Source: Halomonas denitrificans (GTDB lineage: Bacteria; Pseudomonadota; Gammaproteobacteria; Xanthomonadales; Wenzhouxiangellaceae). Taken from it: a stretch of 64,000 bases of DNA. Below, piece by piece: positions 58,115 to 62,843 of the stretch. The notes beneath the pieces were generated by a model. The model saw nothing but the letters and a program-made list of their open reading frames with translations, was not told where the DNA came from and searched no databases. Numbering within the stretch: the stretch's first letter is position 1; every line of letters begins with the position of its first letter. The DNA is taken from the NCBI GenBank assembly GCA_019800895.1, contig JAHVKF010000001.1:124001-188000 (forward strand). Reading direction: 5' to 3'. Position numbers and translations under genes: made by a program.

Positions 58115-58143
58115 TTGCGAAGGCACGCCAGACCCCGTATCCT
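58115..58143 (+). promoter_or_regulatory. Predicted promoter of the ArsR-methyltransferase/metH operon
   Basis: TTGCGA, a 17-base spacer and TATCCT lie in the gap after gloB. The expected start is near 58150. The -10 is part of the palindromic element at 58138-58175. Confidence 0.5.
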
Positions 58144-58175
58144 TTGGTGTATCTTTTGATCCCGATACAAGGATA
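58138..58175. promoter_or_regulatory. Palindromic operator candidate before the methionine operon
   Basis: The core TGTATC-N10-GATACA (58148-58169) is a perfect inverted repeat. It is flanked by TATCCTT (58138-58144) and AAGGATA (58169-58175), which are also reverse complements. The element covers the predicted -10 and the ribosome-binding region. It is a likely site for the ArsR-type protein encoded next; that protein's sites are typically imperfect dyads. Confidence 0.6.
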
Positions 58176-58186
58176 AGGTCATCGAA

Positions 58187-59110
58187 CTGGAACGCGTCGG
58201 GCGTCACTGCTCCCTGCTGGGCGATCCCACCCGCCTGAGGCTGCTGGCGCTGCTCGATCTCGAAGAGTTGACCGTCGCCGAGCTGGCGCAGACCATGCGC
58301 CTGGCCCAGCCCCGCGTGTCCACGCACCTGGCCAAGCTGCGTTCCGCCGGGCTGGTCGCGGACCGGCGCGAAGGCGTCTCGGTCTATTACCGGTCGATGA
58401 CCTCGAACGAGGACTGCGCCCTCTGCCAACTCTGGAATCTCCTGCGCGAGCGCCTCGACGATCCGCAGGTCGCCGCCGACGCCGAGCGGCTGCCGGAGGT
58501 CCTGGCCCAGCGCGCCCGCGGCCGCAACTGGCCCGACAGCGTGGCCGGCGACATGGAGCGTCACTACTCGCCGGGACGCAGCTGGGAAGCCACCGCGCGG
58601 GCCGTGGTCCAGCTCATCCAGCCCGGCCGAGTGCTCGACATCGCCTCCGGCGACGGCGTCATGGGCGAACTGCTCGGCCGCCGCGCCGACTCCATCGATT
58701 GTGTCGACGTGTCGCCGCGCGTGGTCGAGGCCGGCCAGGCCCGGCTCGAATCGCTCGCCAACGTTCGTTTCCACCAGGGCGACATGCACGCGCTGCCGTT
58801 CGACGACAGCGCCTTCGACACCGTGCTCCTGCTTCACGCGCTGACCTACAGCGAGCGGCCCGCCGACGCCGCGCGGGAAGCCGCTCGCGTGCTCTGCCCG
58901 GGCGGCAGCCTGGTCGCGGCGACGCTCAAGGCCCACCGCCACACCACGCAGGTCGAAGCCTTCGGTCACGTCAACGACGGCTTCGAAGCCGACGAACTGT
59001 CCGCGCTGTTCGATGCCTGCGGACTCGACGTGACCTTCTGCGACGTCACGTCGGTGGAAAAGAAGCCGCCCAACTTCGAAATCATCACGCTACTGGCCAC
59101 GAAACCATGA
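58187..59110 (+). CDS. ArsR/SmtB-type regulator fused to a SAM-dependent methyltransferase
   Basis: The product has an N-terminal winged helix ([20 protein letters not shown], then [18 protein letters not shown] and a VSVYYRS wing). A class I methyltransferase domain follows, with [15 protein letters not shown] for SAM binding near residue 150, [25 protein letters not shown] and [14 protein letters not shown]. No metal-binding Cys set typical of ArsR sensors is clear. Fusions of this type near SAM-cycle genes are known as SahR-like regulators; control of metH by SAM or SAH is inferred. The open frame from 58160 to the TTG at 58268 holds no ATG, GTG or TTG. A CTG at 58187, eight bases after AAGG, is used here (307 residues); an ATC at 58181 is an alternative. 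The stop overlaps metH part 1. Confidence 0.85.
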
Positions 59111-60171
59111 GTCGAACCGAACCGACCGCCGACCGGCGCGAGCGGGCCTGGCACGACGAACAACGCGTCGGCGCCCTGTTCGACGCCCTCGACCAGCGCA
59201 TCCTGCTGCTCGACGGCGCGATGGGCACGATGATCCAGTCCGAGAAGCTCGACGAGGACGATTTCCGCGGCGAACGCTTCGTCGATCACCCCGAGGACCT
59301 GAAGGGCAACAACGACCTGCTGTCCCTGACCCGACCCGACGTGGTCAAACGCATCCACAAGGCCTTTCTCGAAGTCGGTTGCGACCTGGTCGAGACCAAT
59401 ACCTTCAACGCCAACCGGATCAGCCAGGCCGACTATGCACTCGGAGACCTGTCCGCCGAACTCAACCGGGTATCGGCGGAGCTGGCCCGGGAAGCCTGCG
59501 ACGAGGTCGAGCGCGAAACCGGCCGAAGCTGCTTCGTGGTCGGCACGTTGGGTCCGACCAACCGGACCGCGTCGATCTCGCCGGACGTATCCAGTCCGGG
59601 CTACCGCAACATCACCTTCGACGACCTGGTGGCGGCCTACGCCGAGGCGGTGAAGGGCCTCCTCGACGGCGGCGCCGACCTGCTGATGATCGAGACCATC
59701 TTCGACACCCTGAACGCCAAGGCGGCGATCTTCGCCATCGAGGAGGAGTTCGACCGTCGGGGCGAGCGCTGGCCGGTGCTGATTTCCGGCACGATCACCG
59801 ATGCCAGCGGCCGCACGCTGTCGGGGCAGACCGCCGAGGCGTTCTATTATTCGGTGCGCCATGCCTCCCCCACGGGCGTCGGCTTCAACTGCGCCCTCGG
59901 CGCGGACCAGCTCAGGAAGCACGTCGAGGACCTGGCCCGCGTCGCCGAGTGCCTCGTGACCGCGCACCCCAACGCCGGCCTGCCGAACGAATTCGGCGAA
60001 TACGACCAGTCCCCGGAGGAAATGGCGTCGATCGTCCGGTCCTACGCCGAAGACGGGCTGGTCAACATCATCGGCGGCTGCTGCGGAACCACCCCGGCGC
60101 ACCTGGCGGCCATCGCCGGCGCGATCGAGGCCTTCCGGCCGCGGACCCTTCGAACCAAGCAGGCGGCATGA
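59107..60171 (+). CDS. metH: Methionine synthase, homocysteine-binding part (split MetH, N-terminal unit)
   Basis: The 354-residue protein is the homocysteine S-methyltransferase barrel of cobalamin-dependent methionine synthase: [11 protein letters not shown] near residue 35, [16 protein letters not shown], and the zinc-binding Cys in [11 protein letters not shown] (near 262) and [12 protein letters not shown] (near 324). The full MetH of E. coli is one chain; here the gene stops after this domain and the next gene supplies the rest. The ATG overlaps the regulator stop and the TGA overlaps the next start (both ATGA), so the three are tightly coupled. Confidence 0.93.
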
Positions 60172-62843
60172 CTTCCACCCGATCGAACAGACCGCATACT
60201 CGTCTGAGCGGGCTCGAACCGCTCGTCATCACCCCCGATCTCGGCTTCGTCAACGTCGGTGAGCGGACCAACGTCACCGGCTCGGCGCGTTTCAAGCGCC
60301 TGATCGCCGAAGAGAAGTACGACGAAGCCGTCGAGGTCGCGCTGCAGCAGGTCGAGAACGGCGCCCAGGTCATCGACGTCAACATGGACGAGGGCCTGCT
60401 CGACTCCGAACGGGCGATGACCGATTTCCTCAACCTGATCATGGCCGAACCGGACATCGCACGCGTTCCGATCATGGTCGACTCCTCGAAATGGACCGTG
60501 ATCGAAGCGGGCCTGAAGTGCCTGCAGGGCAAGGGAATCGTCAATTCCATCAGCCTGAAGGAAGGCGAAGAACAGTTCCTCGAGCAGGCCCGCAGGATTC
60601 GCCGCTACGGCGCTGCCGTCATCGTGATGGCGTTCGACGAAACCGGCCAGGCGGACTCGGCCGATCGGATGGTCGAGTGCCTGTCCCGGGCCCACGACCT
60701 GCTGGTCGAGGAGGTCGGCTTTCCGCCCGAGGACATCATCTTCGACCCGAACATCTTTCCGGTCGCGACCGGCATGGACGAGCACAACAACTATTCCATG
60801 GAGTTCATCGAGGCGACGAAGGAGCTGAAGAAACGCTTTCCCGCCTGCCACGTCTCCGGCGGCGTGTCGAACATGTCGTTCTCGTTCCGCGGCAACAACC
60901 CGGTCCGGGAAGCCATGCATTCGGTGTTCCTGTACCACGCCACCCGCGCCGGCATGGACATGGGCATCGTCAATGCCGGGCAGCTGGCCGTCTACGACGA
61001 CATCGACCCCGAGCTGCGCGAACTGGTCGAGGACGTCGTCCTGAATCGACGCGACGACGCCACCGAGCGGCTGCTCGACGCCGCCGACAGGTACAAGGGC
61101 GAAGGCCAGAAGCAGGAGAAGGACGAGGCCTGGCGCGAGAAGCCGGTCGCCGAACGCCTGAAGTACGCCCTCGTCAAGGGAATCGACAAGCACGTCATCG
61201 ACGACACGGAAGAAGCGCGGCAACAGCACGACACCGCACTCGAGGTCATCGAAGGCCCCTTGATGGACGGCATGAACCACGTCGGGGACCTGTTCGGCGA
61301 CGGCAGGATGTTCCTGCCCCAGGTCGTCAAGTCGGCACGGGTGATGAAGAAGGCCGTCGCCCACCTCGTGCCCTACCTCGAGAAGGAAAAGAAGACCGGC
61401 GAGAAGAAAGGCAGCGTGCTGCTTGCGACGGTCAAGGGCGACGTCCACGACATCGGCAAGAACATCGTCGGCGTCGTGCTCGCCTGCAACGGCTTCGAGG
61501 TCCACGACCTGGGCGTGATGGTTCCGGCCGACAGGATCCTCGACGAAGCCGAGAAGCACGACGTCGACATGATCGGCCTGTCGGGCCTGATCACGCCTTC
61601 GCTGGACGAAATGGTCACCGTCGCCGAGGCGATGCAGAAGCGCGGCATGGAGCTCCCGCTCCTGATCGGCGGCGCGACAACCTCGCGGGCCCATAGCGCC
61701 CTGAAGATCGATCCGGCCTACGAGGGCCCCGTGGTCTGGGTCAAGGACGCGTCGCGCTCCGTCGACGTCGTTCGCAAGCTGGCCAGCTCCACCCACCGGG
61801 ACGCCTACGCGGCCGACGTTGCCGAGGACTACGACGCTTTCCGCGACCGCCACGCCAACCGCAAGCAGCGCAAGCCGCTGATCCCGATCGAGGACGCACG
61901 CAAGCGGGCTCTTGAAATCGACTGGAGCGACTGTGGACCGGACAGGCCCCTGAAGCCCGGCATCCACGTCATCGACGACTGGCCGCTCGAGGACCTCGTC
62001 GAGGTCATCGACTGGACGCCGTTCTTCCAGACCTGGGAGCTGGCCGGCCGCTACCCGGACATTCTCGAAGACGAGACCGTCGGCGAAGCGGCCACGAGTC
62101 TGTTCAACGACGCCCAGGAGATGCTGCAGCGGATCGTCGAGGAGAAGTGGCTGCAGCCGAAGGCGGTCTGCGCGCTGCTGCCCGCGGCGCGCGACGGCGA
62201 CGACATCCTGCTCTACAAGGACGAGGCGCGCGACGAAGTGCTCGAACGCATGGTCTGCCTGCGCCAGCAAGCCGACAAACCCTCTGCCAACCTGTGCCTG
62301 GCCGACTTCGTCGCGCCGAAGGATTCCGGCGTCGAGGACTGGACCGGTCTGTTCGCCGTAACCACCGGCCACGGGCTCGAGGAGGCGAAGAAACGGCTGC
62401 CGGACAACGACGACTACGCGGGCATCCTTCTCCAGGCGCTGGCCGATCGCCTCGCCGAGGCGCTGGCCGAGGCCCTGCACGCGCGGGTTCGCCGCGAACT
62501 CTGGGGCTACGCCGCCGACGAGGAGCTGTCGAACGAAGAACTCATCAAGGAGAAGTACCGCGGGATCCGGCCGGCGCCCGGCTATCCGGCCTGCCCGGAC
62601 CACAGCGAGAAGATCAAGCTGTTCGACCTGCTCGACGCGCCCGGCAACATCGGACTGGAGCTCACCGACTCCTTCGCGATGCGTCCGGCGGCCGCGGTCA
62701 GCGGCTACTACTTCGGCCACCCCGAATCGAAGTATTTCGTCGTCGGCAAGATCGGCCGCGACCAGCTCGAGGACTACGCGGAGCGCAAGGGCATCCCGAT
62801 CGAGCAGGCCGAACGCTACCTCCGCCCGATCCTCGACGATTGA
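60168..62843 (+). CDS. metH: Methionine synthase, pterin-, cobalamin- and activation-domain part (split MetH, C-terminal unit)
   Basis: The 891-residue protein begins with the methyltetrahydrofolate-binding barrel ([20 protein letters not shown], residues 20-40). A helical cap follows, then the cobalamin domain with the lower-ligand motif [11 protein letters not shown] (His near residue 427). The activation domain ends the protein, with [15 protein letters not shown] and the SAM-binding [12 protein letters not shown] near 800. It takes the methyl group from methyltetrahydrofolate via B12 to homocysteine bound on the partner protein. The split does not look like a frameshift: both parts have intact starts and overlap by ATGA. 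Confidence 0.94.

Follow-up and report, generated by a model that had tools for sequence, protein, structure and literature searches.

Fusion of an ArsR-type helix-turn-helix (HTH) to a methyltransferase domain is the domain plan of SahR. SamR of the Xanthomonadales has been described as a distant SahR homologue, with about 30% identity to it (Leyn et al., 2014; PMC4239095). In that study, samR genes adjoin metH1 and metH2, metK and metF are among the SamR targets, and the SamR motif is a 24-bp palindrome with ATC-N10-GAT common to SahR sites, whereas the SahR motif spans 20 bp; the SamR regulon was predicted without experimental test. The gene considered here lies in a 64,000-nucleotide stretch of the genome named Halomonas denitrificans (family Wenzhouxiangellaceae; positions 124,001 to 188,000 of contig JAHVKF010000001.1), hereafter the window. 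Judged against the published descriptions, it matches SamR in its domain fusion, its metH1/metH2 neighbours, a 24-bp palindrome containing ATC-N10-GAT, a metK site and its occurrence in the Xanthomonadales. By sequence comparison, an initial annotation of this locus proves mostly right, and the core of the system is already known (PMC4239095). The locus differs from that description in its putative AUC start and in that ahcY and metF, too, lie behind its metK site; the paper lists metF, not ahcY, under SamR. The additions to the known system are thus a conserved non-canonical samR start, a wider target cluster and a corrected operator axis. We consider it likely, with good confidence, that samR-metH1-metH2 is an autoregulated operon in which SamR represses genes of the S-adenosylmethionine (SAM) cycle and senses SAM or S-adenosylhomocysteine (SAH), and in which samR is started at AUC and limited by translation initiation factor 3 (IF3).

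The start codon invites comparison with a different set of genes. AUC is a poor initiator and is disfavoured by IF3, and infC, which controls itself through IF3, is the classic example of IF3 control at a non-canonical start (AUU or AUC). ATC at the start position is shared by infC and samR in the Wenzhouxiangellaceae, but samR would be a bystander target rather than a self-controlled gene. Like the members of the IF3-controlled class, samR lacks a standard start and has a conserved near-cognate codon behind a Shine-Dalgarno sequence, with the exceptions described below. Only a small number of non-canonical starts have been studied experimentally (PMC5472188). One of them is that of sigR in Streptomyces, which starts with GTC, is repressed by IF3 and has an ATGA overlap with rsrA. 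Both sigR and samR encode regulators, have a conserved non-canonical codon at the start position behind a good Shine-Dalgarno sequence and overlap the following gene by ATGA. They differ in the codon and in the type of regulator, and the proof for sigR is experimental, whereas the case for samR is made by sequence comparison.

Start codon of samR

The samR frame contains no ATG, GTG or TTG between an in-frame TGA and a TTG at 58268, which lies inside the winged helix (coordinates of the other features are given in Table 1). The TGA precludes an upstream samR start in this frame of the genome itself. When 115 orthologous loci of the order were placed on the column of window codon 58181, this column held ATC in 47, a standard start in 57, and CTC or CTG with an ATG upstream in nine; the remaining two loci, both of family f9, are divergent and have ATG at +3 and -3. 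A standard start was therefore found at the column in 57 of the 68 loci without ATC. The Wenzhouxiangellaceae (family f1) have ATC at this column in all 40 loci, and three further genomes of the family, in which samR runs off the contig or was recovered only in part, bring the count to 43/43. Among the 40, 38 lack any standard start from the stop (or from codon -30) to codon +3. The codon is read as the start because the same column holds a standard start in most other loci and because a Shine-Dalgarno sequence stands 7 nt before it.

The other families of the order vary in their start codons. ATC is present in 4/4 loci of family f5 and in three of the 21 loci of family f8, in which the column otherwise holds ATG (9), TTG (1), CTC (4) or CTG (4). 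In all eight CTC and CTG loci of f8, an ATG lies upstream at a distance of 4 to 10 codons. In these loci (L032, L033, L099, L100, L103, L106, L107 and L125), the upstream ATG often follows directly on the last half-site of the operator, and the samR start seems, by this comparison, to have moved upstream. Family f2 has 25 ATG and two GTG (n = 27), and f12 has five ATG, four GTG, one TTG and one CTG with an ATG one codon before (n = 11). The small families have ATG in 3/3 (f3), ATG in three and GTG in two of five (f4), GTG in 1/1 (f6) and ATG in 1/1 (f10). A named set of 80 loci, which overlaps the 115 in part, has 28 ATC, 38 ATG, five GTG, four TTG, four CTC or CTG and one locus that could not be placed. 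In five loci from outside the order, placed by eye, ATC is absent, and ATG stands at the column (L310), one codon before it (L311 to L313) or two codons before it (L314).

Several controls bear on this pattern. The distance from the operator to the ATC is 5, 6 or 7 nt in 36, 2 and 2 of the 40 family loci, which shows that the leader is not coding sequence. In the same genes, isoleucine is encoded by ATC 231, by ATT 67 and by ATA 9 times (231/307, or 75% ATC), so an ATC column of 40/40 is unlikely to reflect codon bias alone, although shared ancestry makes this figure indicative only. In metK, taken as a local control, the column of the genome's own start codon holds ATG in 26/30 loci, which shows that an ATC start is not a general habit. 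The infC gene starts with ATC in all 30 Wenzhouxiangellaceae loci fetched (L184 to L213, from 38 genomes with a hit; the genome's own copy is L210, G000:C3:875370), suggesting that AUC works as a start in this family. A quickly built tree of 83 proteins, rooted at the midpoint and with 24 of its 80 inner branches weak, requires only three changes of start state, which suggests that the ATC state is old. The mean Shine-Dalgarno pairing energy in 27 family loci is -5.4 kcal/mol for samR versus -3.0 kcal/mol for metH1, and the corresponding means in 37 non-ATC loci are -3.8 and -3.9 kcal/mol. This difference is suggestive of compensation for the weak codon, but it is not relied on here, as the operator dictates the sequence. 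An open-access literature search, in which subscription journals are mostly uncovered, gave no recognised paper on an AUC start of samR or on SamR of Wenzhouxiangella among the matches listed.

Other observations weigh against this reading of the start. The 43 loci of the family are related and do not represent 43 independent events. In-frame standard codons occur upstream in two genomes of the family, namely a TTG at -7 inside the operator (G007) and an ATG at -14 (G011), and several f1 loci have TTG, GTG or ATG between +4 and +12, with no common position. Similar exceptions are found in two of the four f5 ATC loci (GTG or TTG at -18 to -21), in the f8 ATC locus L117 (GTG at -4 and TTG at -11) and in three of the 28 named ATC loci (GTG at -4 in L256, L263 and L265). 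The CTG at 58187 (codon 3) is another possible start; CTG is found there in only 22/40 loci, the others having CTC (17) or CTT (1). The sensitivity of samR to IF3 is proposed by analogy, which also counts on this side. On balance, the sequence comparison indicates that samR is probably translated from AUC, hence scarce, and probably IF3-sensitive.

Putative operators before samR and metK

The proposed SamR operator lies just after the predicted -10 box and has the Shine-Dalgarno sequence at its right end. Across the 40 same-family leaders, its majority sequence is TATCTTTCAATCGCGATAAAAGGATA, with half-sites TATC-N4-NATC-NN-GATA-N4-GATA. ATC-N10-GAT occurs in the operator twice, in overlapping copies, and the inner 24 bp equal the length of the published SamR motif, which was compared by description. 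A TANNNT box with a spacer of 16 to 18 bp to the best -35-like hexamer is present in 39/40 leaders, and that hexamer has the form TTGNNN in only 24. The two outer arms fold into a clear hairpin in the leader RNA of one locus (L005).

The initial annotation had proposed a dyad, TGTATC-N10-GATACA, extended by TATCCTT and AAGGATA and covering the -10 box and the ribosome-binding region. The core of this dyad is present, once in the window (0/100 shuffles) and once in the 3.2-Mb genome, but its axis was misplaced. The axis of the 26-bp operator gives a mean of 9.6 symmetric pairs out of 13 in 40 leaders, whereas the proposed axis, 4 bp to the left, gives 5.6 (39 leaders); all other offsets between -8 and +8 average 5.9 or less. 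Four to six of the six arm pairs of the proposed dyad still match in every leader because its arms are half-sites 1 and 3, which are both real. TATCCTT (58138 to 58144) was rejected as a mirrored outer arm, as TATCCT is the predicted -10 box, and AAGGATA combines an operator half-site with the Shine-Dalgarno sequence. Aligning orthologous leaders, as had been suggested along with that annotation, bore out the conservation of the dyad, with scores of at least 14 of the 16 fixed positions in 40/40 samR leaders of the family and in 30/30 metK leaders. Across the order, most leaders carry the motif; five of 115 score below 11/16 (two in f2, two in f8 and one in f9). The two of f8, L105 and L117, count against the proposed arrangement, since they have ATC at the start column yet score only 8 and 7; the AUC start and the operator can therefore part.

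The samR and metK sites are the only two in the genome with at most two mismatches to the motif (one and two mismatches, respectively). At three mismatches, two more places appear, versus one for a reversed control. The two sites have opposite orientations, with the degenerate half-site on opposite sides. In this genome, metK is followed on the same strand by ahcY (118-bp gap) and metF (gap of about 145 bp; L318, C2:1016700-1021200), so that, by position, one operator would cover all three genes. As the motif, at two mismatches or fewer, stands only before samR and before metK-ahcY-metF in this genome, SamR may control the whole SAM cycle, although the 118- and 145-bp gaps could hold other promoters. 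A wider regulon was sought in relatives with an 18-mer pattern at one or two mismatches; eight of the matches listed, all inside open reading frames of more than 150 amino acids, were set aside as probable chance matches.

Proposed regulation and competing explanations

In the proposed mechanism, SamR would bind, as one dimer or two, the 26-bp operator that covers the predicted start of transcription and the ribosome-binding site, as well as the second operator before metK-ahcY-metF, and transcription would be stopped at both. Its methyltransferase-fold domain would mainly sense SAM or SAH, such that high SAM strengthens repression or high SAH releases it. SAM synthetase, SAH hydrolase, methylenetetrahydrofolate reductase and methionine synthase would then rise and fall together. 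The samR mRNA would be translated from AUC behind a fixed AAGGA, and SamR would be made in small, IF3-dependent amounts, as AUC initiates poorly and is disfavoured by IF3. Comparison of sequences shows the domains, the operon, both operator sites and the lack of a standard start with a conserved ATC, whereas binding to DNA, the effector, repression, initiation at AUC itself and control by IF3 are inferred. It is conceivable, though rather doubtful, that the AUC start has long served regulation and is not a tolerated defect, with SamR rising under relaxed initiation fidelity, as when IF3 is in short supply. If true, a SAM-cycle repressor would be coupled to translation initiation, which consumes methionine as formyl-methionine, and this coupling would form a second feedback loop beside SAM/SAH sensing. 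With a family-wide AUC start in a transcription factor, limitation of a metabolic regulator by IF3 can be put to a direct test.

The chances are about equal that the AUC start is real but merely holds SamR synthesis at a low, constant rate, with IF3 levels carrying no signal. A scarce autorepressor needs only a weak start, and for sigR no increase in translation from the GTC codon could be shown under oxidative stress (PMC5472188). Signalling through IF3 would better suit the few changes seen on the tree, by which the start state looks old and kept although a canonical start is one mutation away. Gene finders restricted to ATG, GTG and TTG miss non-canonical starts, and such a pipeline would choose the TTG at 58268, the first standard in-frame start, giving a shorter protein. 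Translation from this codon is extremely improbable, as it would cost 29 codons, including D15, R18, R20, L21, L24, L25 and E29, which are invariant in 20 aligned proteins. Moreover, its column holds CTG in 23, TTG in nine, CTC in seven and CTA in one of the 40 family loci, whereas in most relatives from other families the ATC column is occupied by ATG or GTG.

The metK-ahcY-metF site bears on whether SamR would respond to SAM as a co-repressor or to SAH as an inducer, and we hold the SAM version to be as likely as not. Leyn et al. lean to SAM, since in their study the SAM-cycle genes other than metK are absent from the reconstructed SamR regulons (PMC4239095). In the metK-ahcY gap of one relative (G007), a SAH riboswitch scores 47.8 bits (L157:2722-2797), above the gathering score of RF01057, which also counts in favour of SAM. 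The metK operator, however, precedes ahcY in all 30 family loci, in which metK and ahcY stand in tandem, and also metF in this genome. By position, the targets metK, ahcY, metF and metH correspond to the core regulon of SahR, which answers to SAH (PMC4239095); this weakens the published argument from the exclusion of ahcY. Furthermore, the Rfam scan that detected the riboswitch in L157 did not find one in the other 14 of 15 metK-ahcY loci, the genome's own included, so ahcY may depend on SamR there. It is very unlikely that the methyltransferase domain is a working enzyme that the HTH merely tethers or tunes. Its SAM-binding motifs are kept and the nearest solved folds are mostly methyltransferases, but the association with metH and metK, together with the conserved operator, suits a sensor. 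Work on SahR (Novichkov, 2014) reportedly also describes the corresponding domain as effector-sensing. The initial annotation had further suggested that SamR blocks translation start as well as transcription. This idea, or that of a leader acting as an RNA switch, could draw on the overlap of the Shine-Dalgarno sequence with the operator, on its partial pairing in predicted leader RNAs (mean 0.62 over 40 leaders) and on the L005 hairpin. It is nevertheless highly improbable. Seven leaders folded against shuffles showed no consistent structure (z from -1.7 to +1.1), an Rfam scan of 57900-63200 detected no family, nothing suggests RNA binding, and the samR and metK sites lie in opposite orientation, as expected for DNA binding.

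SamR protein and operon layout

The initial annotation had described an ArsR-methyltransferase fusion followed by both halves of MetH and joined to them by ATGA overlaps, and had linked the protein to the methionine and SAM-cycle genes. All of these points agree with the domain searches and translations, and a protein of this type is published as SamR (PMC4239095). The two domains share a single reading frame, the three genes form one same-strand row with an ATGA overlap at both junctions, and metH1 and metH2 match positions 7-341 and 340-1230 of the MetH model PRK09490, respectively. Downstream of samR, metH1 is present in 30/30 testable loci of the family and in 76/80 loci of the named set, and the samR/metH1 ATGA overlap is present in 23/27 family loci. 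The further proposal that the methyltransferase fold is a SAM/SAH sensor appears likely by comparison. The absence of a standard start codon in samR had escaped that annotation.

Table 1. Positions in the window of the features at the samR-metH1-metH2 locus
Feature	Position	Strand	Description
Predicted -35 box TTGCGA	58115-58120	+	17 bp from the -10 box
Predicted -10 box TATCCT	58138-58143	+	Part of the outer TATCCTT arm of the initial annotation
TGTATC-N10-GATACA	58148-58169		Dyad of the initial annotation; off-axis pairing of half-sites 1 and 3
Putative SamR operator TATC-N4-GATC-NN-GATA-N4-GATA	58150-58175		26-bp dyad, four half-sites, one degenerate; inner 24 bp at 58151-58174
In-frame stop TGA	58157-58159	+	Inside the operator
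Shine-Dalgarno AAGGA	58169-58173	+	Overlaps the right outer half-site; 7 nt before ATC
Proposed AUC start of samR	58181-58183	+	ATC in 43/43 same-family genomes
samR	58181-59110	+	ArsR-type winged helix and class I methyltransferase-fold domain; 309 codons plus stop
ArsR HTH_5 domain	58223-58357	+	Pfam PF01022, E 3.1e-13; residues 22-66 counted from 58160
SAM/SAH-binding methyltransferase-fold domain	58634-58915	+	Pfam PF08241 Methyltransf_11, E 1.1e-19; residues 159-252 from 58160
metH1	59107-60171	+	Half of cobalamin-dependent methionine synthase that binds homocysteine; overlaps samR at ATGA
metH2	60168-62843	+	Methionine synthase half with the folate, B12 and AdoMet-activation parts; overlaps metH1 at ATGA

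In an alignment of 20 proteins, the methyltransferase-fold motifs D-x-A-S-G-D-G, D-x-S and D-M-H are invariant or nearly so. An AlphaFold model of SamR shows a winged helix and a methyltransferase fold (pLDDT, the predicted local distance difference test, 83; pTM, the predicted template modelling score, 0.56), and a PDB search with this model found methyltransferase-fold proteins, mostly methyltransferases, several of them with bound SAM or SAH. Residues 115-133 (about 58526-58585), a stretch that starts with W, are among the best conserved, yet they form the only segment of the model with a pLDDT below 50; this segment may act as a flexible lid that senses the ligand. SamR is present in 383/398 genomes of the order at E <= 1e-60. 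In a draw from the class, it was found in 11/369 genomes at E <= 1e-40, of which five, including the genome under study, belong to the order. One further locus (L056 of G054) encodes a protein 32-33% identical to SamR behind a leader rich in TATC and GAT, and this protein may be a true SahR. The same-strand gene upstream of samR (57304-58071) is gloB-like and, with a THHHHDH motif in its translation as judged by eye, resembles hydroxyacylglutathione hydrolase.

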